Assembly (NCBI RefSeq): GCF_009730915.1
Contig: NC_052483.1
Coordinates: 806,001 to 870,000 of the forward strand
Length of the DNA: 64,000 nucleotides
Origin: Dioscorea cayenensis subsp. rotundata
Lineage: Eukaryota > Streptophyta > Magnoliopsida > Dioscoreales > Dioscoreaceae
Direction of reading: 5' to 3'
Position numbers and translations under genes: made by a program. This document shows, piece by piece, positions 15,213 through 63,142 of this stretch; positions within the stretch are counted from its first letter, which is position 1, and the number at the start of each line of letters is the position of its first letter. The notes below the pieces were generated by a model that searched no databases, had not been told where the DNA came from, and worked only from the letters and a program-made list of their open reading frames with translations.

Positions 15213-15292
15213 TGTGTATCCTTTTCTTCTTCTTGCGTTAGACTCTTCGCTTGTTAGTTTACAAATATTTTGTTCTTGGTGTTCTTATTATC

Positions 15293-19431: not shown

Positions 19432-19605
19432 TTTCTAGTCTCTTTTGTGTCTAGTTTTTGTGATTAGCCTGTTTCTCTTCTCTAATTCCTTCTCTTGTAG
19501 CTTTTGTTTGTTTAGATCTTTGCTTTCTGTTTTTTGTCGGTTTGTTTTTCTTTGCTATGTTGTTTTCTCTGTTCTTTTTAGTTTTCTGCTAATAAAAAAA
19601 CTTTT

Positions 19606-20760: not shown

Positions 20761-20769
20761 GCATCAAAG

Positions 20770-21300
20770 GTCCGGGTGTGGGCGTACCTCAGTAGATTTC
20801 TACATCTACTTGAGCTCCCCTTGTCTATGTCACTCTTATGGAGCGGCTGGAGGTCTACATTACATCCCGCGGTCCGGGTGTTTGGGAATTGGATTGTTAA
20901 AGCTTTTGTGTGGTCTATTTTGAGCTTTACGCTGAAATGATTATATCTTTGCTGATAAATGTGATAATGCTCTTGTTGTCATGATGAAGACCGCTCATAT
21001 GCTGTTATCTTGGTTCTCTGCAGCGCCTGAGGGCTTGAAAGTGAAGCTTCCTGAGCCTATCTCTTCCATCAGGCGTTGCTTAGAGCTTGGTGGACCACGT
21101 TCTGAGGAGGTGGAGGTCACTTCCTTGACGGAGGTTGTTCAAGATGGTGGGGAGGAGTAGTGATTTTGTTGATTTGGGTCAGAAAGAGACCCGTTGTTCC
21201 TCCTTTTATCTTGCACTTGTTTTTGTTCCACAGCTGAGTGGGACGATCGTGTTGTGTCTTTTTGTTTTTTAATGGATGTGGTTTTATCCACCTTTCCAGA
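20770..21300 (+). mobile_element. 5'-truncated LINE 3' fragment with 9 bp target duplication
   Basis: The end of a LINE ORF2 is readable around 20930-21160 (NDYIFADKCDNALVV, KTAHMLLSWFSA, stop at 21158-21160). It resembles the C terminus of the LINE ORF2 at 27.6-27.8 kb (KSANMLLSWLS). A 3' UTR follows with the hairpin GTGGTTTTATCCAC at 21278-21291. GCATCAAAG occurs at 20761-20769 and again at 21301-21309, as expected for a target-site duplication. Inside, the 11-mer GGTCCGGGTGT is repeated at 20769-20779 and 20871-20881, around 91 bp of unrelated GC-balanced DNA, perhaps a 5' rearrangement made during insertion. Confidence 0.7.
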
Positions 21301-21548
21301 GCATCAAAGATATAAATTAATTTTAATGGCTTGTATGTCTGTTTAAATCTTGGCAGGGACTTTCAACTCACAAAAAGGAGACCAAATTATTGTGGCCTGA
21401 TTTGACCCGTCCGGCAATCAAATTGGGTGCCATCTAGAAGATGATCCGAAAAAGGCAATAATTCCACACCCTTCTTCAAAAGCACAGCATGAAAGTTATG
21501 TTCAAAATAATTATGCAGAACTTCAAGCTAGACAACAGGAACAAAGAA

Positions 21549-24318: not shown

Positions 24319-24334
24319 ACCATCAACTTTTCTG

Positions 24335-27300: not shown

Positions 27301-27798
27301 AAAATTCTTACTCTTAACAATCTATTCAAAAAAGGCTGTAATCCTAATGCCACTGACACATGCATTCTTTGTCATAATAACTCGGAAACAGTGGAACATC
27401 TTTTTCTTGATTGCAAATATGCGGAGCGTATTTGGTCCTTCTTCAAACAAAACCTTGATGTTGAGTCTTCCCCATCCTCAGTATCTAATATTTGGACCAT
27501 TTGGATCCCCTCATTAATTTCCTCTCGTCGGAACCTGGGGGACCTCTGTTCTAGAGCCATAATCTGGAATATTTGGCTTGAACGAAACAATCACATTTTT
27601 AACCTTACTTGCCTACCTATTATTTCAATTTTATACAAGTCTGCTAATATGCTGCTTTCTTGGCTTTCAACAGATTTAGAGAACCTTCATCAGGATACCA
27701 CGGAGGCCACTCAGAGGATCAAGCGCTCTCTCAACTTCCTGGGCACTAGACCCACTGATTTCATCGGCGATTCGGTGCACACTGCTGATCAGGAGTAG
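24335..27798 (+). pseudogene. LINE ORF2 (endonuclease-reverse transcriptase, no RNase H), frameshifted
   Basis: It begins at an ATG 16 bases after the ORF1 stop. The endonuclease motifs are LCWNVRGLG, LQEMKL, GDFNTL and GSDHSPIF. A frame change between about 25080 and 25180 separates it from the reverse transcriptase: KAPGPDGFP, KVDFAKAFDSLDW, GLRQGDPLSPLLFA and the catalytic YADD in LQYADDLIIF, all intact to 26868. From there to about 27285 the frame is lost repeatedly. The zf-RVT segment (CILCHNNSETVEHLFLDC) and C-terminal region are again open at 27286-27798. The product would nick target DNA and prime reverse transcription from it; this copy cannot make the whole protein. Confidence 0.82.
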
Positions 27799-28056
27799 TC
27801 CTCCTATCCTTATTGCTGGGCAGGCCTGTGTCTCCAGACGGTTGACTTCGCCGTCCCAGCTTGTCTCATTTTATCTTTCTTCCTGTCTTGATTTTGCTCA
27901 CTGTTTTCCTCATCCCTGGTGAGGATTTCAGTTTGTTATTTTATTTTAGACTTTTCTTGTTCGCGACCTTTTCTACTGTACTCCTCTGTTTCCTTCTTTT
28001 TAATAAATTAGTGGTTTATCCACTTTATTCAAAAAAAAATAATAATAAATTATGCA

Positions 28057-32084: not shown

Positions 32085-34280
32085 TTTCAATGAGTCTCTC
32101 TTTTCTCTTTTTGTTTGTTATTAATACGGTTTGATGTTGTCATATATAGGTTGCCATACATGTAGAGTTTGAAGAGAAACTCTTCTTCTTTTTCTTGTGG
32201 TAACATTTAGCAGTGTTCATTCTGTTTTTCTCTTTTTGTGTGAATTTTGGTTAAGTGTTTGTGTTTCTATGCTTTGCTTTTTTTGCTCTCTTTTTTTTTT
32301 CTTTTGTTGGTGAAGGACGAGGGATCTGATTGAAGAACGTTGACATTTGAGGATGTCCTTGGCATTGTATTTGTGGGCTGTACATGTGTTTTTTCTTTGG
32401 TCATGATCAATGCTTTTGTGATTTTTTTTTTCTTTCATTTACTGCGATTTAATTGTTTTCTAAGCCGAAATGTTTGAGAGAATAAAAAAATTAGAGAAGA
32501 GATTATAGAGACCAAATAAAAGAGTTTTTTTAATACTACAACACATCAATTGATCAATGATGGTAAAAATTTTAATTATTACATTATATAAATAATTCAT
32601 TAAAGTATAGTGCTTAATATCCATCAATTTCTTGGTACGAGTTTCTTATTATGCAGATAAGACCTTATATGATTGAATCGTAACACACAGGGTGAAAACA
32701 TAAATATATGTCAAAAGATTAATTTTTTTTAGTTTTTACACGTAATTCATATATGACTTATTCAAGTTTTGTAATATATATATAATTTTTATGATTGAAG
32801 TGAAAACATTTAAAATAATAAAAATAACAAGAAGTTAACATTCTTCATAGATTATCGCTGTCATAATCGAGTTATTAAGCAATAAACCGTGAGAAAAGAA
32901 ATATCAAATATTACCATCATCTTCTCTTGAAGACTTGGACATGCCCATGTGATTTGATTGTTTCCCTACTCACTCTGTAATTGTCATAAAGACAAACGAG
33001 TTGTTGGTTTATTTTGGTGGTCATTATCCAGAAAATAAAGTCATTAAAGGTCACCAATTCTTTTTTTTTTTTTTTACTTTTTCAAAATTAATGTGAAAGA
33101 GACTATATATTCGTTTGAGATAAAGTTGCTTTATTTTATTCATGGAATGGAGCTAGATTCTTTTTTTGTTTTTTTTTTTAATAAAATGGAGCTAGATTCT
33201 TGTTGTCAGTTTTTATCTTATCTTTTTTTTATATATAAAATACACACATATACAACCCTAAGAAACCAACAAGTTGGATATCTAAAACAGTTCAACAATA
33301 ATATGATATGAGTACACATGTTTAGATGCAATGTCTTGACTTTCCTTTTTGCACAATTCTTTCATCCTTCTTTTCCTACACATCCACTTGTTCTCGTGCA
33401 ACGCAACAAATCCGGACTAAAATTTTATTAAAAAAACATATCAAGAAGCAAATAATTATGCATCTTTATTTTTATTTTTTTTTGCATTCTTATTTGGCCT
33501 TTTCTTTTCTTATATACTCTATTTCTTTATTAGCATCCTTGGACCATTAATTTGTTTTAAAAAAAATGTTAAACCCTGATTTTATTTCAAAAAAAAAACC
33601 ATTAAATGGTGAATAGTAAAGAAAAATTTTAAAAATTATAAATCAATTAGTGTTGGTGGATAAAGACTATTAAAAATGAGAGTATAACCAAAATTAGTGC
33701 CCCTTTAGAGATAACCAATGAGGGAATCATCCAATCAGGGTGGAATGCTAGCCGAATCCTTTGTTGGTTGTCTCTCCAAGATCTGTGATGGTGATGCAAG
33801 AGCCAAAGAACTCTAGACTATTAATTATTTTCAATATGTTAATGATTTTTTTCGTTTGTAGTTGTTGTGATTTTTTTTAGAAATAAAATATAAACCATCG
33901 AAAATATAGGTTGTTTTCAATAAATCAATGATTTATCCATTTTTTTTCAAAAAAAAAAAAATATAGGTTGCTAAATTTCTCTTATTAATTAGTGAATATA
34001 ATTTGTATTTTTTTTTCAACAAGATAACATCTAGGTCGTTACTAAGACATACAAGCTTCAAGCTTCGGGGAAATAAGTGAAGGTGGGGTTTTCATATACA
34101 TAGATGTTGGGACCATCCATATACAACCACTACTCACACCTCTAAAAATATACCCTTTAACTCAAAAATTTCAAAGACCTGAATATCATACAGACCACTA
34201 AATAGTGGCACTCCATTTTACCCATTAAAATTAGTTTATGCATAATATGAAAAAAAATAAAATTAAATAAAAAAAATTTA
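32085..34280. other. Intergenic, 3' side of the unknown gene
   Basis: No gene is seen. The first few hundred bases are T-rich and likely include the 3' UTR. A micro LINE insertion lies at 33915-33957. The rest is AT-rich low-complexity sequence. Confidence 0.45.
33915..33957 (+). mobile_element. Micro LINE insertion: 43 bp of LINE 3' terminus
   Basis: The 13-mer AAAATATAGGTTG is perfectly repeated at 33902-33914 and 33958-33970. Between them are 43 bases made of the LINE 3' end only: an AATAAA-type box, the hairpin-like ATGATTTATCCAT (33929-33941), a T run and a poly-A tail. This looks like target-primed reverse transcription that stopped almost at once. The edge inside the A run is ambiguous. 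Confidence 0.7.
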
Positions 34281-34870
34281 CATAAGCTGGACTTTAACTA
34301 CTTGTTGGGCTTTTTAATTTGTTTTGTGGTAAGATCTTTTCACTTAACAAACAATAATTTGATTAATTTCATCAATAAATTTTTTTCAACATATACTTAA
34401 ATTTTATAATACTTTACACAAATACAAAAGATGAAGCATACTAAAATTTATTCGAATGCTACTAATTTCATAAAACAAAATTATTATCCCCTTTTAATAA
34501 AATTAAAAATAAATTAAAAAATTACTTTAAAATGACTCTCAATTCATGTAAAAGATTATAATACCTACCAGCAATAGAATGCATATATGGTGAATTTGGT
34601 TATCATTAACAAACTTATATGTTATACCGCATCATAAAACATAAACCCAATGTGATGGCCTAAGCTGCATAACATGCCAGTCCTAGGTTTAGTCCAAACT
34701 TTAAATAGATAGATAAATAAATAAATAAATAAATAAATCTTAACGAAATTTAAAAGAAATCAAAATATTTATTAAAAAAATAATCAAAATAAAACAGTAA
34801 ACAAATCAATTAGGTTCAACTAAATCAGATTATATATTTATTTTTATCAAACTGCAAGAACAATAAATCA
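34281..34870. repeat. Local duplication, copy 1 (keeps the empty transposon site)
   Basis: It shares extended similarity with 35333-37155: CATAAGCT at the start, AACAAACAATAATTT, AAGCATACTAAAATTTGTT-like blocks, CAGTCCTAGG, and AAACAGTAAACAAATCAATT near the end. At 34564-34571 it reads CCTACCAG followed by CAATAGAATGCAT. This corresponds to the target site interrupted in copy 2. It contains an (AAAT)n array at 34706-34739. Confidence 0.75.
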
Positions 34871-35332
34871 CATAATTTTTAGCTTATTGACTCTAGCAGA
34901 TAAATCCCTTGATTTTGTAAGAGCTTTTGGCATTTTCATCTACTCAGTGCTTACTTACTAGGGGGAGGAGCATGCATCAATGGAAGCATTGTCAGAATTG
35001 AAGGGTTCCTGTACTTTACGTTGAGGAAGCCTAGAGATGATGGTCAAATTTTTTTTTTTTACCACGCATATCATTACCAAAAGGAAAAAAAGGAAACAAC
35101 AACAACGATTAGAGAACAAAAAACAACACAGATCACCAGAGGTACAAAAATAAAATGCTGATTTTGATAGAATATATATATAAGCGGAAGAAAACCATTT
35201 AGCCATATCTAAGAACAAGGCTTGAATATATGGATCGGGTAATCATTATGTTTACCTGTTAAACAAACCACTTTGCCATGAAATATGAGCAGAAGAAAAC
35301 CATTTTGCCATATTTGAAAAAAATCAAATTTT

Positions 35333-37155
35333 CATAAGCTACTTTGAATAGTTGTTGAGCTGTTAATTAGTTTTGTGTATGATCTTTTAACTTAACAAAC
35401 AATAATTTCATCAATAAAATTTCTCAACAAATACTTAAATTTTTTAAAACCTGACACAAATACCAAAAATTAAGCATACTAAAATTTGTTTGAATACTAC
35501 TGATTTTACAAAATAAAATTATTATCCCTCTTTAAACAAAATTAAAAAATTACTTTAAAAAAGGCTCTTCGGATTCATATAAAAAAAATTATAATACCTA
35601 CTGGTAGAAGGGGCACGGACCGACATTTGGTCCGGCCCAGCCCGGAAAAACCCGCCGGGCCGGGCCGCCAACCCAGCGGATTGACCTGCCGGGTTACCGG
35701 GTCGATTTCTTTTTTTTAAAAAAAAAATTTTATGTATAAATCTCACGTTTGGGGCTTTGAACCCGTGACTTCTTTGAAAGTCAATAAACTACTATAACCA
35801 ACTCCAACCAACACTCATTTGTTGAATATGTGTGTATATATATATATATATAATTGTTAGATATTATTAATTGGAATATTTTTGTGTTTGCAATAAATTA
35901 TAATGAGTAAAAACATACTTAACAAATTCTTAATTGTCTTCATGGATGTATAAATTTATTTCACTAATTAGAAGCATGCTTTAGTGTTTTTTTAAGGCTA
36001 CGAGCATTTGTCGTTTATAGAACCTGATTGTGGGTTAAAGATATCATTGTGTGTTGTTTTTCTTTTATTAAGGATTAGAACTCTTACCACTTTGCACACC
36101 ACACAAAAAGTTAATTTTAATACCACTAACTAATTGAATTAAGTAGTTTTAATTTAATAACTAAAAACTTAAACAAGAAGTTATGAAAGTAGTGATTTTT
36201 TCATCGATAAACATATTGAGAATAAAAAACAGCTATACCTCATAGTTGTAGACCAAAGGTAAAGCTTAGATAGATCTCAATGGTTATAAATAAGTGATTA
36301 ACAACTCCAATAAAAAATTTAAAAACTAATATTTATTAAAAAAAATATACCAACCGTTTAATTAGATAAATAAATGAATTTAGTGCAAAGGCCTTTTTTT
36401 TCCAAAATTATTTTGAATTTTTTTAATTTTGTCAACTTCATCTAATTTATTAAAATTATTTTTTATTTTTAGAATTATTTAAAAAACTCTATTTAACATA
36501 TAAATTTATTTATGGTTTTACCAATCATGTGAGATAAGTTTGGAAAGAATGGTTAGAGGGTGAAAGGGTTTTGTAACGGGGCACGGTTCGCGGGTTGGCA
36601 CTATTTCACGGGGCGGTTACGGGTCGACCAAACACCGAGCCGGACCCGCCAGATCCGCCGGACCCGGTTAACCGGCCCGTGCCCCCCTCTACCCACTGGT
36701 AATAAAATGCATATCTTGTAAATAATAATTTTTATTAATAACTCATAAGACATATATATATCTATATTGTCTCTAAATTTGAAATATATAAATGTCTACA
36801 ATAGCCGTTATTTTAGTATCCAATGGTTATGATTTATTTATAAAATGTGCGAAACAATTACAAATAGTTATCTATATAAATAATAGTCGTTGAATCATCA
36901 TCAACTGCGGTAAACAAATAGTTATATATATATATATATGTACGCAATAATTTAAACCTTATAAAATATACCCAAACTCCACAGCCCAATGCATAACTCC
37001 CAGTCCTAGGCCTGGTCCAAACTTTAAATATATAATTAAATAAATCAATCTTAACGAGATTTAAAAGGAATCAAAATAAAACAGTAAACAAATCAATTAG
37101 ATTCAACCAAATCACATTCTATATTTATTTTTATCAAACCGCACGAGCAATAACA
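35333..37155. repeat. Local duplication, copy 2 (carries the hAT-like insertion)
   Basis: Second copy of the block at 34281-34870, about 1.05 kb away in direct orientation. It is interrupted by the 1,087 bp element at 35605-36691 and by extra AT-rich DNA at about 36715-36960 that copy 1 lacks. Similarity resumes at the CAGTCCTAGG block near 37000 and runs to about 37155. Confidence 0.7.
35605..36691. mobile_element. Non-autonomous hAT-like DNA transposon
   Basis: The ends are TAGAAGGGGCACGG... on the left and, read from the right end inward, TAGAGGGGGGCACGG: imperfect terminal inverted repeats of about 15 bp with GC-rich subterminal GGCCGG-type blocks. Flanking 8-mers are CCTACTGG (35597-35604) and CCCACTGG (36692-36699), one mismatch apart. 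The 8 bp duplication and TAG-G start are typical of hAT. The interior is AT-rich without a transposase frame, so the element depended on a partner for movement. The parallel empty site at 34564 supports the boundaries. Confidence 0.85.
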
Positions 37156-37711
37156 GAACAAAATTACAAGTAAAAGAACAAGAATGAATCAATGACGATG
37201 ATCCCGTGCAAATGAAAACCAATCTAACCTTCTTTTTGTTTCCCAAAGATGAGAACAATCAACCCAATTCTGTTAGGTGTGAGATAAGAAACTCAACGTG
37301 TTCTTTGACTTGCCTTTCTCTAAGTTCTAGTAGGTCAGTTAGAGGACCCCCTTTGCTTTCATGGTCCTCAAGTCTAGACGGACTTCCTGGATTCATTCTA
37401 ACCCTTTTTTAATTGGACAACAACCTTTCATACATGCCTTCACTAAGTCCTTGACACGCAACTATTCCACGCCATTACCATGGTGTTGACTATCATGCCA
37501 TTTTTAATTTAATTCTTTTATAGAAATCAATTGTCCTCCATCCTTAAACCAGCCCTCCACCAAGATTGAGTTATAATATTGATTCCTTTTTGCATCTGTT
37601 CTTCTTCTTCTTCTTCTTCAACCTCCCAAAAGTTGCCACGAAAGAGGAATAAAAAGAGAGAAATATATATTAAAAAGGTGAGTGTCTTTGAATATTTTGA
37701 TTGTTTCAGTA

Positions 37712-37743
37712 GGTGGTGGTGGTGGTGGTGGTGGTGGTGGTGT
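37712..37743. repeat. (GGT)n microsatellite just before the glycosyltransferase start
   Basis: About ten GGT units end two bases before the ATG at 37745, in frame with it but with no in-frame ATG upstream, so they are probably leader rather than protein. Confidence 0.75.
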
Positions 37744-37744
37744 G

Positions 37745-38999
37745 ATGACAGAAAGCAAGACATCCTTGGGATCTATAGAGAATAATAAAGATTCAATCCA
37801 AAAGGCTAAAGGAAAGCTTCTCCCATTGACAATAGTTAAGATAGTTTTAGTTTTCTTAGCTTTGGGTCTTGGTTTCTCAATAGTGAGTATGAGCATGGCC
37901 AGGTACTTCTGGGACAAGAGCCTGGCCATGCAATCCATAACCAGGTTCCAACCCTGCATCGGAGAAGAAACCAGTCTGGAAAAGTGGATTAGACCTCCTC
38001 TGAATTTGATGCACAAGATGACAGATGAGCAGCTTTTCTGGCGTGCAAAGTTTGGTCCCAAAGGTACATAACTTTCCCTTCAAAAGAGTCCCCAAGGTTG
38101 CCTTCATGTTCTTAACCAGAGGTCCTTTGCCTTTCCTTCCTCTCTGGGATAAGTTCTTCAAAGAACAACCACATACTCTTTACTCAATCTACGTTCATAC
38201 TCTCCCTTCCTACAAACCTGATTACCCTTCCTCTTCTGTGTTTCACAACCGCCAAATTCCAAGTCAGGTACTAATCCCCTCTCTGTTTTTTTATTTCTGT
38301 CAAACAAACATATATATATATATATATATATATGAATGTGAACTTTATTGTTTTAAGGTTGCTGAGTGGGGGAAGATGAGCATGTGTGATGCTGAGAGAC
38401 GTTTGCTAGCAAACGCACTGCTTGATCTCTCCAATGAACGTTTTGTACTGGTCTCTGAATCTTGTGTCCCAATAGTAAACTTCAGCACCATCTACAAATA
38501 CTTTGTGAAATCTCAACATAGTTTTGTTGGATCATTTGATGAACATAGTCCACATGGAAGAGGTAGGTACAATTGGAACATGGCACCAGAGGTTGAGGCA
38601 GACCAATGGCGCAAAGGTGCTCAATGGTTTGAAGTGAACCGTGAGTTAGCTGTTACTATAGTTGAAGACCATAAGTACTACCCAAAGTTTGAGAAGTTTT
38701 GCAAACCATCTTGTTATGTGGATGAACATTACTTCCCAACAATGCTAAGCATTGAAACACCAGCTTTGATTGCTAACAGGACTGTAACGTTTGTGGATTG
38801 GTCTAGAGGTGGTGCACACCCGGCAACGTTTGGAAAGCATGACATAACTGAAGGTTTTCTTAGGAAAATCACACAAGGACATTCTTGTCTTTATAATCAT
38901 CAGAATACAAGTCTTTGTTTTCTGTTTGCCAGGAAATTTGCTCCTAATACTCTTGAGCCTTTGATGAATTTGGCTCCCATGATTTTTGGATATGGTTAA
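37745..38999 (+). CDS. Core-2/I-branching beta-1,6-N-acetylglucosaminyltransferase family protein (GT14), with a one-base frameshift
   Basis: A type II membrane protein expected in the Golgi; plant GT14/DUF266 members (rice BC10 is the best known) act in cell-wall or arabinogalactan glycosylation, but the acceptor cannot be read from sequence. Two exons, 37745-38267 and 38358-38999. The 90-base intron (GT-AG, with an (AT)n run) has no in-frame stop. Modelled length is about 387 residues, normal for the family. A membrane anchor lies at about residues 26-49. Family blocks: [39 protein letters not shown] (across the splice), [44 protein letters not shown] and [13 protein letters not shown]. Between LFWRA and NFPFKR the frame shifts; dropping one A from 38047-38049 gives the family-like ASLVPK. 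The first in-frame ATG is used as start. Confidence 0.88.
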
Positions 39000-40029
39000 T
39001 GAGTTTTTGAAACTCATTGTTATTGTAAAGAAAATTGAGAGTTTTAGTTATTAAGAGGAAGTGATTCTTTTTAGTGTTTGCTGTCTGCTGTTAATTAATC
39101 ATGGTGACTGATATTATCATACTCTATACCAGCTTTTCTTTTGTTTGACAAGCCTTCATAATGTTTTAATCAAAGGAAAGCAAGAATGGCAATTCATGGG
39201 CCAACAGCCCATGTTTTCCTAAGCAGATGAAAGATGGTGATTTGGGGGCCTATTCATTCCCCTGAAAAATGTCAACAAGTAAAGATGTGGGACTTTGCTT
39301 GATTTCATGACACTTTTCCGCATAGTTAAAAGTAAGTCAGTCATCATTTTTTCTTTTCCTAGAATTCAAGTCGAGAATTAACTCCTTTTTCAATATTAAT
39401 GGTTGAACATTGGTAACTTGTTCACTTTTATGAAAAAAAACTAATAATAATAATTAGTCATCATAATAATACATAATGAAAGAAATAAAATAGTTAAATC
39501 TAAACATGGTATTATACATAACAATGACAATGAAAATATGGTAATGGATCAATCAACTAGCTAAACATGGGGTTTTATGCAATATGGAAATTAACAACGA
39601 TATGAATGATATTTGTCATTAGTTGAATTGATATGTATGGGAATTATCTATATTATAATAATTGGATAATATCTTGATATATAATTAAACCAATTGAGGG
39701 AATCAGATTCCTAGATGTATTGATAAAATATTTAAAATTATAAAGGAAAAAAATTGAAAATCATGGCCACGAGTAGCATTCTATTCCATGAATTTTTCTT
39801 TCTATTATTGGATCAATATATTCTTTGAATTACAAAAAAAAAAAAATGTCTTCTATAACAACTACTATTAAAATTAACTACAATTTTTTTTATTTATACA
39901 GTTTACGAAAAAACTAAAGCTAAAGGATTCGATTGATATTGTGGATAGAAATCAGGAGTTCCTTAGATTTAGTGAAAATGATTGTAGAGATTTGATGACA
40001 AACATGGTTATTACGTGGTTGATAGATTT
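39000..40029. other. Intergenic, 3' side of the glycosyltransferase
   Basis: The first ~200 bases are probably 3' UTR. The rest is AT-rich with no gene seen. Confidence 0.45.
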
Positions 40030-40040
40030 GCCTTTTGTTC

Positions 40041-40301
40041 CTTTTTTTTTTTTAAGTAAATGTGGATAAACCACAGATTTATTGAAAAGGGAAAAAAATA
40101 AGACATAATCAAGAGCCTCTCACCGAAGTGAGGGGAGCAACAAAACACAGAGAAAATACTAAAAATGCGAGAATAATAAGAGGGAGTCTGAGAGGCGGGA
40201 AGGCACCATCAGCAACTCGAGCCTGTCTGCAGGCAGTAGGAGCAACTACTCCTGAGCTATATCATGAGCAACTACTCCTGAGCTATATCATGAGCAGGAT
40301 C
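40041..40301 (-). mobile_element. 5'-truncated LINE 3' end, antisense
   Basis: It begins with a T run (the LINE poly-A on the minus strand), then the hairpin GTGGATAAACCAC (40062-40074) and an AATAAA box read on the minus strand. GCCTTTTGTTC flanks it at 40030-40040 and 40302-40312, an 11 bp target duplication. Near its 5' end a 26-base unit is repeated twice in tandem (40241-40266, 40267-40292). Confidence 0.75.
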
Positions 40302-40312
40302 GCCTTTTGTTC

Positions 40313-41584
40313 TTTTTTATTAGGTGTCCTCCTTTGTTAAATTTTGTTTTATTAATAAAAACTTTGTTATTTTTTTGTGTAATATCCTTTATTTTTTTCT
40401 CTCTTTTTTTTGGTCTATCTACTCAGAAATGTGCCCCATTAATTTTTTGACTCTTGAAAATGGTTCTAGTTAGTCTCTTCTACTCTAAAATAGGCCAATT
40501 AGTGGCTGTATTTTTCAAGAGTAGAGGGACTAGATAGAAAGAGATTAAAGGTATATAGACTAAATTTGATCATTTTCAAGAGTAGATGAATTAGTGGGGC
40601 ATAATTCTAAGTAGAGGGACCAAAAGAGAAGAAAGAGAAAAGTAGAGGGACAAATTCAGGTATTATATCTTATTTTTTTTACTTCTCTTTATGTATTTTT
40701 ATTTTTTGTTTTTTTTAAATCCAACAAAATTATAGTTTTTTTTTTTAAAAAAAAAGAAACTTCAAGCTATATGAATATTGTACAGAGATCAAGGAGCCGT
40801 GAAACATCATGTTGTGGAGCTGTGGAATTTTGCATTATTTAAGTATTGTCGTTTGTAGTCTTAATTCAACTAAACAGAGCATTACTTGATTGACTTGAAC
40901 ATGCAGCATTTTTTGATTTCCCAAACAGAAGTATATCTTAAATAATTAATACGTGTCTTTTTTTTTTAAAAAAAAAAGTAGTATTCATATAGGAAAGATT
41001 GTAAAGGTGTTTAGTGAATTCTAAATAGTCATATCTTTTGGTTTTTTTAGTTTGTAATTTATTATTTATGTTTATTTATAATAAAATGGGTAAATCACCT
41101 ATAAAAAAATTTAAAAAAATTGAAAAAAATATAAAAAATTAAAAAAACATTAAAAAAATAAAAATAAAAAAATTACAAGAATATAAATACTATAAATAAA
41201 AGTTTCAAAATAAAAAAATATTCATGTAAAGATGTACCCGTCTTCTGTCACAATTAGAGAGTCCACTCGACAGCTCTTTAGTAGGTGATTTTTTTTTTCT
41301 CTAGGGTCCTTTTTTTTTTCTTTTTATCTTTTTGTACTTCGGGTGACAATGGATACTTTATATATTTTTCATATGTTTATTTTGTCCTCCTTTATTTTAC
41401 TTTTCTTTATGTTGTTTGTTGTACTGTTTTACCTTTTTATTTTTCTAGTAATCCACTTTATAAAAAAGAAATTCATGTTGTCATCTAGACTCTAGTTGAT
41501 AATTTTTGAATATATATATATATATATATATATTCTATATGGATGTAGAATTAACTTCTTTTGCCCTTTTGAAGATGAGTCATT
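40313..41584. other. Intergenic AT-rich DNA
   Basis: No gene is seen. 41285-41470 is T-rich, with a TAATCCACTTTATAAAAAAG end that resembles a worn LINE 3' tail on the plus strand. An (AT)n run lies at about 41511-41533. Confidence 0.4.
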
Positions 41585-43690
41585 TTTATAAAAGTGGATA
41601 AATCACAATTTTATTGAAAAGAGAGAAGTACAAAAATAGCTAGGTTGCTGAAGACCATTGTCTGGCAACACAAATCTGCCTAAGCTATCTGGGTCAGTGA
41701 ACTACTCAAAGGCTAAGTCATGGTCTGTATCGCTGATATGATCTAAGACTCATGCGCGCATGAATTTCAGAGGCACTTAATCTTCTGAGATGCTTCATTT
41801 AAAGATTGTTGCTGAGGGTCAGTAGCTGTAGAAAACAAATAAAGAAGCATATTAACAATTTTAATAATAGCAGAATAAAAAGGTAATGTAAGTAATTGAA
41901 AGATATTATTATTTGGTTAGAGCCATATATTTTAGATAACGACTCTAGACTAAGGTCCCAAAGCCGTTGTCGAGAATTTAACGACTGTAGCCAGGAGGTC
42001 CAAATCTTAGAAATGGTTGGTGGAGGTGAGTGTAGTTCTAAGATTTATTTAAAGAATGACCAAATCGGCTCTCAGTATTTGAAATTAAGAAAGAGATGTT
42101 CCACTGTTTTAGGAGCTTTGTGGCAGAGAACACATGTATTTGTGGCGTTTTGGAAGTTACAACCATTCTTGAATAGGCTTGTGAGAGTTAGAATTTTATC
42201 ATTACACACTAGCTAACAAAACAATGAGATTTTGCTTGGACATCGGATTTTCCAAAATTGAGGGTATAACGGGCTACTCGCCCTCCATCTATTAGAAACT
42301 TGTAAAAGGATCTAATTGAGAAGGTTTCACTTTTTTCCAGTGCCCAGATGTTGATATCACCCTGATTGTTAGAGCAGCCTGGGATTGAGTTCAATAGTAG
42401 GGATAGATAATTTATTGTAGCTGTGTGAAAAAGGCTCTCTAGTGAAGTGAGATGTTGAGTGAATTGTCTTAGAGTTATCCAGGGGGGTGGTGGGCGGTAC
42501 TATCATTGAAAAGAGAAGACCATAGATCTTTAATTAAAAGTTTTTCCAGAATGCCATCTATCAAACCAAAAAGTAGTGTTTGCACCATTTCTAACAGATT
42601 TGGAAATACACGAGCGAAAAGAGGGCAGAGTGGTGTTAACTCCTTCCCAGAAGAAGGACTTGTTTCTAGGGTGGAGTTTGAAATAGAATTCCAGGAGAAT
42701 TTCTAATCAAGTAATTGCATGGTGTTGATAATTTTGAGCCGACAGACTATTTGGATTGGATGAAATATTCCACCACCATTTTCCTAGTAAACATTTGTTG
42801 AATTCCTGAAGATTAAGAATTCCCCAGTCACCCATGTTACGAGGTCTGCAGATCCTTTTTATATTCAACCGGTCTGATTCTTTTGATCCCGAATCCGGTC
42901 ATTTCCAAAGAAAGTCCCTTCTGATCTTATCAATTTTTTTTTTATCACCCATGTTGGGAGTTTGAACACCAACATCCAGTAAACTGGAATTGTGGATAAG
43001 ACCGAATTAATAAGAGTTAGACGACCACCTAAGGAGAGTTAAATTGCTTTCCAAGGAGTAAGTCTAGATCGAACCATTCCAATAAGTTCCGTGCAATCTT
43101 GATGTCTTAGTCGCCTTCCAAAAAGGGATAACTCCATGTATGTAATAGATAGGCAATTTCTAGTGCAATTTAGGGTCATTGCAGAGGTGATGTTTGGTTT
43201 TTAGCCATAATTTGTAGAGTATAGGCAGCTTTTCGAGTAGTTGATGGAGAGACACGAAAACCCTTCAAAAAGATAGAAAATTAATTTAATTATATGAAGA
43301 TCTTCTTACCCTCCTGCTAAGAAAATGATGAGATCATTTGCATAGTGTAGGTGATAGATGTTTTTTAATTTGATCTAGTTAAACACCTACCATGACTTTG
43401 GATCAAGGGTGTGATTGAACATTGCACTCAGAACATCTGCTGCTAGTGCAAAGAGAAGAGGGAAAGTGGATCTCCTTGATTTAGACCTCTTTTACAACGG
43501 ATATAACCCTGAGTTATTCCATTAATGAGAATCTGAGTCTTCACAGTTTTGAGAATAATATGTACCCAAGTTAACTATCAGAAGCGAAACTCCTCGTTAG
43601 GTTTGTTACAATTTTTAATGTTGATGCAGCGTTGACTATCGATTTTAAAGCTATATGAATTTGTATAATAAAATTTTGAGAAGAAAAAAT
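41585..43690 (-). mobile_element. 5'-truncated, heavily decayed LINE, antisense
   Basis: Read on the minus strand it holds the second half of a LINE ORF2 very like the one at 25-27.8 kb: TQILINGITQGYIRCKRGL (about 43470-43540), YANDLIIF in place of YADDLIIF (about 43320-43360), ICRPRNMGDWGILNL (about 42810-42860), FYKFLIDGG (about 42270-42300), and TCVLCHKAPKTVEHLFLN (about 42090-42140). The hairpin-like GTGGATAAATCAC is at 41594-41606, next to the 3' end. It is truncated just upstream of RT motif A, has many stops and frameshifts, and lacks the first catalytic Asp of YADD. Confidence 0.8.
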
Positions 43691-46600
43691 AATAATAAAA
43701 TTGTAGTTATCACTCAAAAGCACTGTTTTGGGACTTCAGTTTCATAATAAAACTATCTTATTCAGTCCATTATAGCGCAACCTCTCGAAGGTTTCATGGG
43801 GCACTCGAATACATAAAATTCTTATCCACACTTACTATATATATATTTATTTGCCTCAAACATGTATATGAATCATCACCAACTACTTAAATAAAAAAAA
43901 CAAAAAGTTCAAAAGAAACAAAACACAATAATAGAAACCAAGATGCATTTGATGCAATTCCCTCCACCAAAGTCTTGAAGTTCTATAAGTGCAATTCAAT
44001 GGATGTTCTTAAGAGCATTATGAACTGAAATGGATGGTGAAGCCTCACACATCTCATTGTCGCATAGGCATAAACATAAACATTAAACATTAGCATAACC
44101 AATTTATGCCATGCATGATTACCTCTCCACTTCAATTTGTGCAAATGTTGTCACCTCCAACTTCCTCTCCATTAGTAAGAACTAGTTTGTAAATGTTTCA
44201 TTGATGTGATTTAACATGTTAAATTTTAATTAAGTAAATGATTTGTCCACTAAGATCCCACATTTTTTTTTGACAAGGTATCCAACATCTTCTTTTACTT
44301 GTGATTTAAGTTATAATCACCCACCAAATATCTATTATGCCTTGAGGCTTTCTAAGTCATCACTTGAGTGTAGTTTTAGGTCACTAAATGCTTTTCATGG
44401 TTAAAAGTTACATTGTCCTTTATAGGCCTTCCATGTTTATTGACTATTTTCAATTTCATGCTAATGCAAAAGTTAGTAAATTATCCAAAATATATTAGAA
44501 ATATAGTTGTTACAATTATAAATATAAAGAACTATAATACAGTAAAAATGGTAGAAGCGAGTATAAGTAAATTACATAAAACAAAGTAAGGAGAGTATAT
44601 GAATCACCCCTAACGACTAGAGATGGAGAAAAATGTAAAAAAAACCAAAACAAAATCTTTAAAAAATAATCGCTCATAAGATCATTTGTCCATGGATACA
44701 CCCTCAAATTAAGAAGTAAGAAGTTTTTGATAGTCTACTTTATTACAAAGGAGTTTCTCCCATCTCTACAAGAAGTGCTCAAAATTAAAATTTTATTCGG
44801 TGACAGTCATAGGGTACTAATCAAAATATTTCAACCCTAAGCAAAAGCCAAGCAATTTCCATGCAATCATCTTCCAACACTTGTGAATCCAGTATATATA
44901 TATATACATAAAAAAATGTTTATGTTTATGTGGATCTCTTAAGTTTCTCATTGGTTAATGTTTAATTCCCTTGTTAGATAGTGAGTGATGTGTGCCATAA
45001 AATTAGCCCATGACTTGGGAGCATGCTAAAGTTGACAACAAGGGACATGGAATCTTTTGAAGAATTGGTAGACCACGTGGAATCCGACTTCTCGGAAAGG
45101 TTCCCTTGATTCACGGTACTACATCAAGAATCTTCCAGAGATCCTGATTAATCATAGAATCATACAAGTCTCATAGACTCTCCACTAAGCTTATCCTCTT
45201 TTTAGCTCAAATAAAAAGATACCTTGATCATCATCCATAAGTTAAGAAAGTTAAGTTATTTCACACTCAAATCAATTGTCAAAATAAATATAATTAAACA
45301 AGAATATATATATATATAAAGGATGAATAATATGATTTAATAAAAACAATAAGCAATACAAAAGTGAAAAAAATAAATATGAAATGCACACAAAAACACT
45401 AATACCCGACAACAACACAAAGAGAAAACAATCAATGGAGAACAACACAACTAGCATAACATAAAAAGAAAAAAAAATAAACAAAAGTCTAATAAATTAG
45501 GGAAAAAGATATCTTTCCTTAGGGAGAGAAAGCGAATAGCTCATTGGACTGTCCTCACTTGTATTACAAGGGAAATATTACAAGAAAAATCTTTTAGAGA
45601 ATTTCATGGAATAGAAATTTTAATTAGTCACATATACCCTACTTGTATTACAAAAAAAAAAATATTGAATGGAAAAAAATTGTTTGGGAATTTCATAGAT
45701 AAAAAAATTTTAGTTACATATTCCGATCACAGCATTCATAGAATTAATAGGGTTGATAGTAAAATGTTAAATGAAATATAATTTTGTGAATTTAAATTTT
45801 AAATTAAAATCAAACCATTCCTCTCATACACTGATTTTGAAAGCAACCTATTGACTAATTCATAGTTTGGAAATTATGAAGAAATTCATTATGGTCCTGT
45901 GCCGCCTCCCCCACTTGTATTGTTTTGAATTGAATAGAGAATTGGTCTCTTTGATGATGGGATAATTAACTTGTCGTGCTGTAATTTTTATTAAATAAAA
46001 TAAAAATATTTCGTTACTTTTACATTAAATTTCCAAGCATGCATTTTGTCTAATATTGATGCCAGCTTCATTGACGTACCGTATAATATTCCAAGTCATA
46101 ACATTGCTTGAATATGAAATGTATTAATTAAATGGTTTTCTTTATAAATAGTAAGCAATTTTCCAATATGGTTGAAAAAAAATAGCATGCTTTTACTTGT
46201 ATATCCCCACTGAAGTGAGGTTTTTTTTTAAAGCACAAAGTAAACAAACCAAAAATTGGCCTACTGAGTTATTACTAACATGTCTTATAAAGAAGATATT
46301 AATATACCCCTATAATTATTATTTAAATTTTTTAGCTAAAATATATTAATAAATGAATAAAATAAAACCAAACTATTATGTTTCTTCACTTCAACCATGA
46401 TGTGGATGAGAGGAAAAAAGATAATGGGGAAATTTTAAGTATAAGATCCTCTAGGCAAATAAAAGTGTTTGTAAATATTTATTAAATTTTTTCAATTATA
46501 ATAAACATATTAATAATAATATTATTATTATTTTATAGATTAAAGTAACATCCACTGGCTCACAACCCGCCGAAAGAGAAAGAATCTTGACTAGATTCTC

Positions 46601-49089
46601 CAGAGATCCTAAATGAAATCGCCTGCATAATTTCATGTGAGATACCTCTGAACACCTCCTGCATTTTTTTTTTAATTTTATAAATCTAGATGATAGTTGA
46701 TAAAATAATTTAAAAACTTTACTAATAATTCTAAAAAAAAAAGGACTAGAATGAAAAGAAGAAATCTTGATGGTTCCTTATCAATTTAATTAACATGATT
46801 TCATTCATTAAAAAATAAAATGGGTAGTTCATTCAGCCCATAATAAGTGAAAAATGAATAACAATCTCCAAGGAATCTCTCCTTCTTTAGATTGAACTAC
46901 TCGATATTTTATGTGGATCTATTAATTTTATCTATTCCATATCTAGTGGTCTTTTATATTTATTTTGTTCCTGTCACTTGTGTTTTGTTTATTTTACAAA
47001 TGTGATGTACTATCTTTTATTTTTAATAAATCTAATTTATCTATTTTATAAAAAAACAAAAAAGACTGGGCAACAAGCCTAGAGAACACTTCATGGATTG
47101 AGTGACACTTGTCACAAATACAAATACAAAATCTTTCATGTTTGATATATATCGCCGACCTTGTTTTCAATGTCAAGTATCTTCGTCTAGGTTTTATTTG
47201 GTTTAACCCCATAAAAGCTTATGATTCTAGTGTTCTTTATCTTATTTTGGATGTATGAATTTCTTGCACATAAGTTCCAAGCAAGCTCTTTATTAACTAA
47301 TGTGTAATTTTAAGGAATAAAAATATCATTCCAACAAACTAGATTTTGATAAAAAGTGGATAAACAAACTAGATTTATCAAACTGTATTTTCAATTTATT
47401 TATCATCATTCAATTTATCTAGATATTTTAATACTGATGATTTTAAGGAAAAAAAAATGGTTATGAATGTTTTATTTTATTTAGTGTTTAAAAAAAATAA
47501 TCATGTTATCTATCTTAAAATTTTGATGCAGGTGGTTTAAATAACATAATGGTCATTGATAATTTATGAAAATAACATTGTTTTATAAAATTATATCTAA
47601 TTTGTCGGGTGAGATATTAATAATAAACAGCATGAGACACGCTTTAAATACATACTATACCTAGTTTATTTATTTTTATTAAAAAATAAAATTAGTGGTC
47701 CATATATATAACAGGTATGACCGTATGAGACACGGTTTAAATTCAATCAAAATTTCAATTGCGCTCGTGATTTATTTGATAAATAATTAAAATGAGACGT
47801 ATATTAACAAGTATAAGGGATTCCTGATTTATTCACTTTCTTATTAAAAACAATAATAATGAGACATGATGGCACAACATTGTACTAAAAAAATATAGAG
47901 AAGATAGAAGATAAAAGTTGTGGTACCCTCTATTATTGGCTAACCAAATTTAAAAAAAAAAAAAGAAAATAGATAAATTATATGCATTAATAAATATTGG
48001 TTAACCAAGTTTGTACCTTAATGTGACCAATCTCTTCTTTAAAAAGAAAATCTTTCTCTAGCAAAGAATACATGGTTGATATCATCAGGGAGCGAATGGC
48101 TTTAGATTTAAAAAGAAAAAAGATAAATGAATTAAAAGAATTAAATTGTAATTTTGGGTCAACAATATTACTAATAAACACATATTGCTTCATTTACTTA
48201 GGCAACAAAAATAATGTATATATACACAGAACTTAAACAAATGGGTGAATTATTATTCTAAACTACCATATAGTTTGCCACTTTCTCAATTCGTGTGTTT
48301 GATTGTTAACCGATTTTTTTTCTATGATTTTTAATCAGTTTATAAAAAGATGCCAAAACACTTGACTACTTAATCTTTATTAAAATGACATTTTAAAACA
48401 CATAAATTTACATTTTTACCTTTATATATTTTAATAATAAACTGTTTAGAACATACAACGTATTTAAGTGTTTTAGTATTTTTTTTTTTTTGTAAATAAT
48501 TAAAACTATAAGGTATTAAAGTGTTAACAATAAAATCATAAGTACCAAATTGAGAAAGAGACAAATCACAAGTTAGTTTAGAATAGCTTTCCGGAAAAGA
48601 TTAATTAAAAATTACATCATATCTAAATGGATATTTTTAAAAACTAATTTTATTAATTATATATAATGAATAAAATAAAATTAATATTTAAAAGAATTTT
48701 AGGTTTTCAAAAAATTAAATAATTTATTCAATTGATGTAGCATGAAACTCAATCGGGTACCAGTACTCCATCAATGTAGAACCGAACAACGTTGGCTTTG
48801 TCAATACACAGTGCAAGCACACAAAACATAAGGAGTAAGGGCAATTTTGGTATTATGATAATGTACATATATATAATAATAATAATAATAATCTCTTTAA
48901 GCGGTCGGTCAGGGGTGAAAAAGAAAGAAAGCTCCTTTAATTAAGGACTTGAACGTGATCAGAAAAGACAGTAAGGACTAAATGATGAAATTAAAAAATT
49001 TCTAAAGGACTTTGAAGTGATTTTCCAGTAAAATTACACAGTGATGTCAGCGGACCTACATGGACTTCGTCTCTCTTCTTTAAACCATC
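43691..49089. other. Gene-poor AT-rich intergenic DNA
   Basis: About 5.4 kb with no supportable gene. T/A-rich stretches at 44510-44700 and 45290-45480 read on the minus strand like LINE 3' UTR remnants, and 46980-47060 like one on the plus strand, but none is well enough preserved to delimit. A 16 bp LINE-terminus insertion is at 47347-47362. Confidence 0.4.
47347..47362 (-). mobile_element. 16 bp insertion of the LINE 3' terminus with 14 bp target duplication
   Basis: AACAAACTAGATTT is perfectly repeated at 47333-47346 and 47363-47376. The 16 bases between them, TGATAAAAAGTGGATA, are on the minus strand TATCCACTTTTTATCA, the same terminal sequence that ends the larger LINEs here (TATCCACTTT...). 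This is the smallest member of the size series. Confidence 0.55.
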
Positions 49090-49096
49090 TATAAAA
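49090..49096 (+). promoter_or_regulatory. Probable TATA box of the MCU gene
   Basis: TATAAAA lies about 50 bases before the ATG at 49146, in a locally C-rich context that fits a plant core promoter and a transcription start near 49120. Confidence 0.6.
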
Positions 49097-49145
49097 CCAT
49101 CAAACCCTCTCACACTCTTCGATTCATCTTCAACCTCGGCTCCCA

Positions 49146-50539
49146 ATGTCTCTCCGGAAAGCCTTGACCCATCGCTTCAGCAGCCTCACAAGGGCCTCAG
49201 CTTCACGATCTCAGATCCGCCCGCCAGTTCCCAGTCCGGAGACTGATCGCCGCCGCCACTCCTCCTCGGCGAGTAGCGTTGCCAGTCGGTGATGAGCTGA
49301 TGGAACGGTTAAAGGGGATGAATCGGGACAGGATTCGGCTTGAGGGAATGGTGAGGCCGGCGGCGGTATCGGTTGAGGAGGCGAAGAAGGTATTGAGGGC
49401 GTGGGAGATGGAATCGGTTCGATCGAGGCTGAGAGGGATGGCGAGTTCTAGGGTTTCGTATTCGGAGTTCTTGCGCATCTGCGGGGAATCAGCGGGGTTC
49501 GATCGGGGCCTGGAGATCGCCAGGGATCTCGATGAGTCCGGCGCCGTCATCATTTTGGGCGGCCTCGTCTTTCTCCGCCCCGATGAGGTAATGCCCTTTT
49601 TAAATTCTTTTATGTAAATATCTCTTAAAAAGATGAAACTTTTTTCTATATTTTAATATATATATATATATATTTTTTTTTAAATATACGGTAAATTAAA
49701 GGTAAAACTAGAAATGAAAGTATTCAATTTAAATAATTGAGTATTAAGAAAATATATATATATATATATTTATTTTTGTAAGTGACTCTCAGTATTTCAC
49801 CCAGTTTTGTGGGTCAACATTTAAAAATAAACACAAGAATTGAAATGTCAAAATTTTTTAAGTATGAAAATATATATTAAGCATTTATTATTTATATAAT
49901 TTTATAAAAAAAATTAATATGAACAAAAGATTATATGTATAAAGAGAGGTGAGATTCTGAATTTTTTTTTTAAGAATATATACAATTAGATATTTGTAAT
50001 TTTTGATGTTATATAAAAAAATCCTTTTTATTTGATTTTTGGAGATATTTTTTATTTTACAATATAAATGAGTAATAACACCATGGTTGAAAATCCAGGT
50101 TGCAAAAGCCATAGAAAGAGTGCTGCCAGTGAAGAACGAGAGTGAGAACAAAGAGCTAAAGGAGATGGAGAAGAAGAAGGCAGAGATGGAGGAGAAAGCA
50201 GAGGCAGAGGTGAGGAGGGAGTTATGGGCAGGGTTAGGTCTTCTGGTGATGCAGACTGTTGGTTTCATGAGGCTCACTTTCTGGGAACTCACATGGGATG
50301 TTATGGAACCCATTTGCTTCTTCTTCACCTCCACTTACTTCATGGCTGGTTATGCCTTCTTTCTTAGTACCTCCAAAGAACCTTCTTTTCAGGCCATTTT
50401 CCAGTCTCGTTTTGAGGCTAAGATGGAGCGTCTAATGAAACTTCATCACTTTGATGTTAAACGCTTCAATCATTTGAGAATGGTAGTTTCTTCATCATCC
50501 TCATTTGATTCTCATCATGCTGATAATCCTTGTTGTTGA
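49146..50539 (+). CDS. Mitochondrial calcium uniporter (MCU) pore protein, with an apparent one-base frameshift in exon 1
   Basis: Pore-forming subunit for calcium uptake across the inner mitochondrial membrane. Exon 1 is 49146-49587 and exon 2 is 50099-50539, with GT-AG splice sites at phase 0. The first ATG opens a basic, Ser-rich, acid-poor leader (MSLRKALTHRFSSLTRASAS) that fits a mitochondrial presequence, but that frame stops at 49290-49292. The conserved part (LPVGDELMERLKGMNRDRIR) is in the next frame, open from about 49165. So one extra base lies somewhere in 49165-49289, or translation starts elsewhere. Exon 2 has a Lys/Glu-rich coiled coil, membrane helix 1, the pore motif WDVMEP with its two acidic residues, membrane helix 2, then the conserved EPSFQAIFQSRFEAK tail. 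The modelled protein is about 293 residues, a little short for plant MCUs. Confidence 0.9.
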
Positions 50540-50769
50540 CAGTATTAATTTGTTACTCTTTCAGTGTTTTTTTCTTTTTTTGGATAAATATGGAGATGAC
50601 ACAAACACAAGAATTCAGGCTCACAATTTGAGGGCGGAATGAAATAGCAACCCTACCCATGATTTTTAAATGTATACGTTTTGGAGTGATTTGTTCGTAG
50701 ATGTGTAATTGTTTATGGCCAGATGGGTGGGATATCATTTTTATTTATTTTATTTTATTTATTTTTATG
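50540..50769. other. 3' flank of the MCU gene
   Basis: Short non-coding stretch, probably including the 3' UTR; no gene is seen. Confidence 0.4.
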
Positions 50770-50799
50770 GAGTGGATAAACTAGAAGACAACAGTTTTT

Positions 50800-51370
50800 A
50801 ATAAAAGCAAATAAATCACAGTTTTATTAAAGAGAAAAAAAATGGTACAGATAAATCCTAAAACAAACAGAAGATAGAAAAAAAATTATAAATGAAGAGA
50901 ATCAAACGAAACCTAAAGTTCCTCAATCCTAGGGATGCGACAACCCATCCCCTGAGCCCCCTCTCCGAACGCGTCCCTAAGGTGTTCTTCCGTGTTGGTC
51001 CCCTAGAGAGTTGTTCTCTCTAGTTGGGTTCCCAGTTGTGTTTTGTTTTTTATCTTTTGTGGTCTTGTTTTATGCCTATTTTGGTGGGTTTCTCCACTTC
51101 TTGTGGGCTTTCATATATGTACTCATTTTCTCTTGTGCAATGAATGTGGTATATCCACTTTTTCTCAAAAATAAAAAATAAAAAATTATAAATCGGACAA
51201 GAAACAGAAAACAATCACTAGAGGTGAAGCAAGCTTGAGAATAATTACATAATACAAGACACACAAACAATAAAGAAAAACAATTAAGAAAGCGAGATCT
51301 ATCTTTTAGTATCCGAGGCTTCCTCAGCAGACAACAAGAGTTGATCACTCTGGGACAGTAGACTTCCTCT
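50800..51370 (-). mobile_element. LINE 3' fragment, antisense, host of a nested insertion
   Basis: On the minus strand this reads as the last part of a LINE: an ORF2-like end near 51300-51360, a T-rich 3' UTR, then AATAAAACTGTGATTT close to the 3' end near 50808-50825. It is split at 50893/51180 by another LINE fragment inserted in the opposite orientation. The outer limits are approximate. Confidence 0.55.
50894..51179 (+). mobile_element. LINE 3' fragment nested inside an older LINE fragment
   Basis: About 286 bases of LINE 3' UTR in sense orientation, ending in the hairpin GTGGTATATCCAC (51146-51158) and an A-rich tail. AAAAATTATAAAT flanks it perfectly at 50881-50893 and 51181-51193. The surrounding antisense LINE sequence continues on both sides, so the order of insertion is clear. 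Confidence 0.7.
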
Positions 51371-51800
51371 CCACCTTTAGTTTTTATTTTTTTTTAAATG
51401 AATTATTTATTTATTTTTTTTATCTATAAATTTGGTCCTAGACCGATTGTTGAGGGTTTGAATTTTATTTGTGGCTTAGATCATAATTTAAAAAAAAATT
51501 TAATTTCTTGGAGAGGTGAGCTCTTGTATAGCTGTGCAATGGTATTTAAATACTTTTCGAAAAATACATTAAGTTTATTTTTGATATAATATTTATATTT
51601 TTTTCATTTTTAATAAAGATTTTTATGAAAGTTTATTTCACTACAAGAGGACTAAACTTTAATATATTCTTTCTATATAATTTTGAAGAGAGTCTATACT
51701 TTATAATTAATTTCTTGTATTTTTTTAATAAATAAAACTTAAATAAGTAAGGCACTTAATATGTTTAGGTTCAGTCAAAGCTTGAACTAAATTTATTCTT

Positions 51801-52030
51801 TTGGGGATGGGTTGAGGACATAGTTCTTGTCCTCACTTTTGTGGTGGGTTGTATCTTAAGTGCTGTATGTTAGTTGCTATTTCACTGTTTGTGGTATCTT
51901 ATAGCCCCTAGTGACTTGTTTTGTAGGGACAATCGCCTTATCTATTTTTGTTTGGCAATCGCTCTATCTGTTTCTATTGTTTTTTAATATATGTGGTATA
52001 TCCACTTTTTCAAAAATAATAATAAAAAAA
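51801..52030 (+). mobile_element. 5'-truncated LINE 3' end with 13 bp target duplication
   Basis: A 230-base LINE 3' UTR fragment with the hairpin GTGGTATATCCAC (51993-52005) and a TAA/A-rich tail. TAAATTTATTCTT is repeated exactly at 51788-51800 and 52031-52043. Confidence 0.75.
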
Positions 52031-52043
52031 TAAATTTATTCTT

Positions 52044-56622: not shown

Positions 56623-56696
56623 GTCTGGGTGGTGTAGTTGGTTATCACACCTGTCTCACACACAGGAGGTCCCCGGTTCGAACCCGGGCTCAGACA
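56623..56696 (+). tRNA. tRNA-Val(CAC)
   Basis: A complete 74-base cloverleaf. The acceptor stem is GTCTGGG with CTCAGAC (one G-T pair) and discriminator A. The D arm contains the A box GTGTAGTTGG. The anticodon stem is CCTGT/ACAGG around loop CTCACAC with anticodon CAC at 56657-56659. The T arm is CCGGGTTCGAACCC-type (CCCCGGTTCGAACCCGGG). There is no intron. A T-rich stretch directly downstream can serve as Pol III terminator. It decodes the valine codon GUG. Confidence 0.95.
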
Positions 56697-62045: not shown

Positions 62046-63142
62046 GTTTTTAGTATATAGTGTTGATAATTAAATAAATAAATATATATATATATATAAT
62101 ATTTTCATTAGAATTGAAATAGATGGGAAGATGCTTATAATGAATATGCGTTGTTTATTATATCAAAAACTACAATTAAAATTCTCGGAGGAGATTTGTA
62201 TTCTAGCAAAATCAAGTTTCAAACTGCTTCTTTCAAATCTAAAGCCAAAAGTATATGGAACCCAAATTATTCAAATGTGACCAAAGGATGGAACGAACAT
62301 GAGGTAATATGATAGTAACTTTCATTGAGGAATTTATAAAAAAATAGTAACCGTGTTTGGCTAAGTTGGCAAGAGAGAAAATACCAAGGAGTTGGTCAAT
62401 TCTTCACGCCATCCATCCTTCCTGGTTTGTAAAGAATCAATACCTTTTACTCTTTGAAGAGTTGGAGTTAGTATTGGAGAGACAAGTACATGGCCTATGT
62501 TTAAATTAATTAGTCTTTACAAAGTTTATTTTATGGTTTGGTTGGCTAACAGAACGTTATCTCCTCTTCTTCCAATGCACACCCTCCATGACCCACAAAT
62601 TAAAAGATAATAATAGTCCAAAGTGATTGGTTTAGTTCAACTACATGATCTGGACCCAACTAATCCCACCATTTAACAAGTATTAGCATCAATGGGTTGG
62701 TCATTGGTGACCACCTTATTATGAAAGCAAAGAGAAAACGAGGCAAAGAATACAATGCAAAGAAAACTAATTAAGTCTCTTATCAATCAGTAGTTGAAGC
62801 CATACCATGCCATCCCTTGATGTCAAGGAATCTCTCAAACTTGTGAAACATGTCTTTTGGTTCCACAAACATCATGGAGTTGAAAAACAAAAACCACCTC
62901 TTCTTTGTTGTTTAAATTTTCTTTTAACGAGTCTCTAGAAAAATAAAAAAAATAAAAATTGGATGCTTGACATTTTTCCTTTTTTTGAATAAAAGGGATA
63001 AACCACTTTATTGGATAATGGTTTATAAATACTTCATAATTTTTTAAAATATAAATACTTCACACTGATAAAATGTAATAAAGAAAAATAGATTAAATCT
63101 CCGTGGCTATACATTTCCTTTAATTCTCACACAAGCAATGTT
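62046..63142. other. Intergenic DNA with a LINE-tail trace
   Basis: No gene is seen. At 62981-63030 the minus strand reads like a LINE 3' terminus: AATAAAGTGGTTTATCC followed by CTTTTATTCAAAAAAA, with AGGGATAAACCAC on the plus strand at 62994-63006. An (AT)n run lies near 62083-62098. Confidence 0.4.

Follow-up and report, generated by a model that had tools for sequence, protein, structure and literature searches.

How early can the copying of a LINE be broken off and still leave an insertion in the genome? The question is raised by a stretch of 64,000 nucleotides from Dioscorea cayenensis subsp. rotundata (here called the window), for which the initial annotation had listed six inserts with LINE 3' ends, from 531 bp down to 16 bp, and had proposed that target-primed reverse transcription, when aborted, leaves micro-insertions behind. 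In a script test exact flanking direct repeats of 9-14 bp, as claimed, were found around all six, and the coordinates given for the inserts were correct to within one base, the insert at 33.9 kb being 44 bp long and not 43 bp (Table 1). That all are bordered by exact duplications is true of these six; three other LINE ends in the window (at 41577, ~62984 and ~50771) are without a convincing one. We consider it likely that the inserts are products of L1-type LINEs that were formed by target-primed reverse transcription and were 5'-truncated to various extents, from several kilobases down to 44 bp and probably 16 bp.

Plant L1 elements are marked by an endonuclease, a reverse transcriptase, a zf-RVT domain and an ORF1 with DUF4283 and a zinc knuckle. 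This L1-type set, with Exo_endo_phos as the endonuclease, is present in both long LINEs of the window. In the longer one, which is decayed and probably near full-length, zf-CCHC, DUF4283, Exo_endo_phos, RVT_1 and zf-RVT (Pfam) are found on separate open stretches, and the 3' end reads ...AGTGGTTTATCCACTTTATTC, followed by an A-rich tail. Its limits depend on the AATTATGCA repeat, which is the third of four duplication candidates listed within a range of 7 kb and is outscored by two others. Imperfect internal repeats were observed in its ORF1 (23164-23348). The second long LINE is a different element; as judged by eye, the hairpin terminus described below appears to be missing from its 3' end near 19590. 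For the 5'-truncated copy ending at 41577 a target duplication was sought and none was found. The other L1-type trait, an A-rich 3' tail together with target duplications of variable length, is present, though not in every copy. When collections of non-plant genome contigs and of viral contigs were searched for the LINE reverse transcriptase, 18 and 4 pattern matches, respectively, were obtained, none of which was confirmed, and a 25-base pattern of the LINE terminus had no match in the viral contigs. Judged from its genes and LINEs the window is plant nuclear DNA. As to the surroundings, a LINE ORF2 fragment (63695-64000) reaches the end of the window, two similar adjacent genes on the minus strand (7146-8762 and 11542-13093) represent a local gene duplication, their products presumably being lecithin or phospholipid acyltransferases, as which they read, and a tRNA-Val (anticodon cac) is predicted at 56623-56696.

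Table 1. LINEs, LINE-related inserts and their flanking repeats in the window
Feature	Position	Strand	Flanking repeat	Remarks
Second, different LINE	13554-19600			DUF4283, endonuclease, reverse transcriptase, zf-RVT
531-bp 5'-truncated LINE	20770-21300	+	GCATCAAAG, 9 bp	20761-20769 = 21301-21309
Long decayed L1-type LINE, probably near full-length	21518-28047 (limits about)	+	see next line	6530 bp if tentative 9-bp duplication correct
Tentative duplication of long LINE	21509-21517 = 28048-28056		AATTATGCA, 9 bp	
22-bp insert, TTATT A11 C A5 (minus strand)	33163-33184	-	AAGAATCTAGCTCCATT, 17 bp, exact	Structure 33146-33201
44-bp micro-insertion	33914-33957	+	AAAATATAGGTTG, 13 bp	33901-33913 = 33958-33970
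261-bp insert with LINE terminus at end	40041-40301	-	GAACAAAAGGC (minus strand), 11 bp	40030-40040 = 40302-40312
243-bp insert, tentative, partial LINE-like terminus	41228-41470	+	ATTCATGT, 8 bp only	
5'-truncated LINE, ~2 kb or more	41577 to at least 43574	-		No target duplication found
16-bp micro-insertion, TATCCACTTTTTATCA (minus strand)	47347-47362	-	AAATCTAGTTTGTT, 14 bp	47333-47346 = 47363-47376
Two degenerate LINE-terminus-like pieces in tandem	50765-50837	-		Profile E 1 and 3.3; by eye
286-bp insert with LINE terminus at end	50894-51179	+	AAAAAATTATAAAT, 14 bp	50880-50893 = 51180-51193
230-bp insert with LINE terminus at end	51801-52030	+	TAAATTTATTCTT, 13 bp	51788-51800 = 52031-52043
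Decayed LINE-terminus-like stretch	~62984-63011, within 62960-63062	-		Profile E 0.16

Six copies aligned at their 3' end have a mean pairwise identity of 0.73 over the last 42 nt as compared with 0.44 over the preceding 60 nt, the former value being inflated because the copies had been picked by this terminus. A GTGG-loop-CCAC hairpin is present in five of them; in the sixth, the copy with its end at 41577, the first arm reads GTGA and is mismatched. When five termini were folded alone, the hairpin was part of the predicted structure of each (z versus shuffles of -3.2, -1.9, -1.7, -0.9 and -2.2). The same arrangement, namely a conserved end of ~45 nt with a hairpin, a divergent upstream region and an A tail, is described for the "stringent" plant L1 elements designated monocot 1a (PMC3747384), whose hairpin loop UCU and 3' flank CGAG are, however, absent here, the loops being UUUAU, UAUAU or UUUUAU. 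The TATCCA(C)TT-type motif of the terminus occurs ten times in the window, five times in recognised LINE copies, twice in the micro-inserts and three times (58584, 48625 and 11558) inside no recognised LINE copy. No convincing duplication was found for the 58584 motif, the best repeat being one of 10 bp around 401 bp.

The longer inserts illustrate what 5' truncation has left in this window. The 531-bp insert consists of the end of ORF2 and the 3' UTR, and its tblastn match to the zf-RVT/C-terminal piece of the LINE begins at 20773, three bases inside the insert; the copy ends without an A run. For the 261-bp insert an origin as tRNA-derived SINE was considered and rejected, since its start (D-P-A-H-D-I-A-Q-E-stop) resembles by eye the end of the LINE ORF2 (H-T-A-D-Q-E-stop). 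A 26-bp unit in 2.2 exact copies (40240-40296) is situated at the 5' end of this copy. Less clear are the 243-bp insert and two further LINE ends, the decayed one at ~62984-63011 and the one near 50771 within the two tandem pieces, for both of which no convincing duplication was found. It was also observed that the tandem pieces adjoin the 286-bp insert and that the decayed terminus is next to an insert of 13 bp enclosed by a direct repeat of 13 bp. The 22-bp insert has a convincing 17-bp duplication and is by score not LINE-like (7 of 300 random pieces were as good); it is possibly a tail-only retroinsertion.

Whether short inserts between direct repeats mean anything at all depends on how often such structures are found by chance. 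The initial annotation had named as a refuting outcome that the flanking repeats be no commoner than in shuffled AT-rich sequence; they do exceed chance. In the window 24 inserts of 6-68 bp lie between exact direct repeats of 12 bp or longer, 12 of them after a complexity filter had been applied, whereas the same search in ten locally simulated sequences (order-2 Markov model) gave a mean of 1.6 unfiltered and of 1.0 filtered (6, 2, 0, 0, 1, 0, 0, 0, 0 and 1). An excess over chance does not, however, identify LINE products. In 10 of the 12 complex structures there is no LINE terminus. One of these ten, at 20048, is a clear degenerate tandem duplication, which neither of the two micro-inserts resembles, and another is the 22-bp tail-like insert with its 17-bp repeat. 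Other processes must therefore also produce such structures, and the idea that flanking repeats of such length are diagnostic on their own was rejected. Inserts between imperfect direct repeats were compiled in a second list, for which no LINE sequence was used; 82 were found, 53 were removed by the complexity filter and 29 were kept, some of which overlap within the same tandem arrays. Most of these 29 are likewise without a LINE terminus. Their inserts were scored for likeness to five LINE termini on both strands, and random non-LINE pieces were scored in the same way.

By this score the 44-bp insert was the first of the 29. Among 4,000 random pieces of non-LINE sequence, cut to the length of the insert, none attained its score of 21, the highest value being 16. 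The insert had been thought to hold almost only the terminal sequence plus tail; it comprises in fact 9 A and, before them, ~35 nt of the LINE 3' end, which extend to the tail and in which the hairpin is decayed. There is good support for its origin from target-primed reverse transcription in which 5' truncation was extreme.

The 16-bp insert was the second of the 29, with a score of 13 that was equalled or exceeded by 4 of 4,000 random pieces of non-LINE sequence that were likewise 16 bp long, corresponding to ~0.001 per insert and to a chance of ~0.03 after 29 tests. If the AAA that follows is included, 18 of 19 positions are shared with the terminus of the copy at 50894. No more than one A is additional to the terminus and untemplated, so that the tail of this insert is not diagnostic. 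With only 16 bp to compare, one has to ask whether a random short insertion or a local duplication just happened to read TATCCACTTTTTATC. The ~0.03 after 29 tests leaves some room for this, as do the three TATCCA(C)TT-type motifs outside recognised LINE copies, that at 58584 without a convincing duplication, and the failure of the insert to stand out in the profile search described below. Against this, the insert came second in a list compiled without LINE sequence, it matches one particular LINE terminus almost completely, and its repeat begins A-rich, and we therefore regard a chance resemblance as quite unlikely. The 16-bp insert, too, probably originated from target-primed reverse transcription in which 5' truncation was extreme. 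Of the proposal that aborted copying leaves micro-insertions, the 44-bp part is thus well supported and the 16-bp part probable only.

When the whole window was searched with a profile built from seven LINE ends, six longer ends were found at E values of 2e-7 to 5e-6; neither micro-insert was significant in this search, the 44-bp insert having an E of 0.87 and the 16-bp insert one of 0.42, both among chance matches. Their case therefore depends on sequence and repeat jointly. The strength of the repeats was compared with that at 1,500 randomly chosen sites that precede A runs, a control that was not masked for local repeats, so that its upper tail may include real local repeats and insertions. 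Within a range of 60 bp the 99th percentile of the control was 21.4 bits, which is exceeded by the repeats of the 44-bp insert (23.8 bits; 6 of 1,500 control sites as strong) and of the 16-bp insert (25.1 bits; 4 of 1,500). Within a range of 400 bp both fall between the 95th (20.1 bits) and the 99th (30.3 bits) percentile, as do the repeats of the inserts of 230-286 bp (21.5-22.7 bits).

Read in the orientation of the insert, the repeat begins with AAAA at the 44-bp insert and with AAA at the 16-bp insert. That both start with AAA agrees with priming in which a T-rich end pairs with an A tail. A target duplication starting at an A-rich site is thus seen in both micro-inserts and is not seen in the 531-bp and 261-bp copies, the repeats of which begin with GCAT and GAAC and thus have no A run. 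Other repeats begin with AAAAAA, TAAA and AATT, and at the 22-bp tail-like insert with AAGA.

These starts also bear on another origin that has to be considered. In plants, patch or filler repair of breaks gives insertions with duplicated flanks, i.e., the same repeat-insert-repeat form. The 16-bp insert, and with less likelihood the 44-bp insert, could thus be filler DNA from the repair of a staggered double-strand break, in which fill-in of the overhangs generates the duplication and an unrelated piece or a LINE fragment is captured without target-primed copying. That duplication events of other kinds do occur here is evident from the 10 of 12 complex exact structures without a LINE terminus and from the one that is a degenerate tandem duplication. 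Captured pieces would be expected to come from anywhere, yet the LINE 3' terminus forms the end of each micro-insert, for which filler repair gives no reason, and both are followed directly by A and have repeats with A-rich starts. Filler DNA is therefore in our opinion an unlikely source.

Finally, the small inserts could be what remains of longer LINE insertions after later deletion of the 5' part. The 44-bp copy is old, as judged from its decayed hairpin, and internal deletions are common in plants. The deletion would, however, have had to stop precisely where the 5' repeat borders on the insert, and this in both cases, which makes such a history very improbable. Truncation during target-primed reverse transcription is thus the reading followed here.

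The process could be envisaged as follows. At a target rich in A the endonuclease would make a nick, a T-rich 3' end would pair there with the tail of the RNA, and the enzyme would copy inward from the 3' end of the LINE RNA. Copying would then halt early, in the case of the 16-bp insert inside the loop of the 3'-terminal hairpin, past only the 3' arm, and in the case of the 44-bp insert slightly upstream of the hairpin. The end of the cDNA would be joined to the staggered second cut, resulting in the duplication of 9-14 bp. We infer this order of events, the joining route and, from one case (the 16-bp insert), the stalling at the hairpin. At its 5' junction the 16-bp insert may, as judged by eye, have a microhomology of up to three bases (GTT) with some termini, and there is none with others. 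One could go further and assume that the LINE enzyme, while holding the 3'-terminal hairpin, stalls there and thereby generates throughout the genome a separate class of insertions of 15-45 bp, which extend from within or just before the hairpin to the tail and which would be recognisable traces of insertions that were aborted, with small indels arising from them steadily. This we offer as a speculation that is more probably wrong than right by a wide measure.

Truncated L1 insertions have been described from humans, and it was proposed that they are healed by the joining of ends, whether microhomology is involved or not (PMC2912911). The human 5'-truncated, target-primed L1 insertions likewise retain the 3' end, vary at the 5' end and have target duplications; what is different here is the plant element with its conserved terminal hairpin. 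The lengths of truncated LINE members are quoted as 100-1,000 bp in PMC3747384, and two of the copies described here (44 bp and 16 bp) are far shorter than this range. In exon 25 of human NF1 a pathogenic poly(T) stretch of ~120 bp was found, for which its authors suggest as possible sources an Alu or L1 in severely truncated form or even a processed pseudogene (PMC3219598). As a truncated Alu or L1 it would be an extreme 5' truncation to almost the tail only and in this respect comparable to the 22-bp insert; it is a homopolymer of ~120 bp, whereas the micro-inserts retain bases resembling the LINE terminus. Since a severely truncated Alu or L1 was thus already offered as an explanation there, extreme truncation is not a new idea, and the micro-insertions are new examples of a known process. 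Plant LINE insertions of 44 bp and 16 bp were not recognised among the open-licence papers searched, which is no proof of their absence.

A strong case and a probable one within 64 kb do not establish that such scraps are common, and they do suggest that a genome-wide count would be worthwhile. If the scraps were common, some of the small insertions in plants that are ascribed to slippage or break repair would be failed jumps. And even more, their ends would record the points at which the enzyme had stopped, so that aborted LINE insertions would become measurable from the genome sequence alone.
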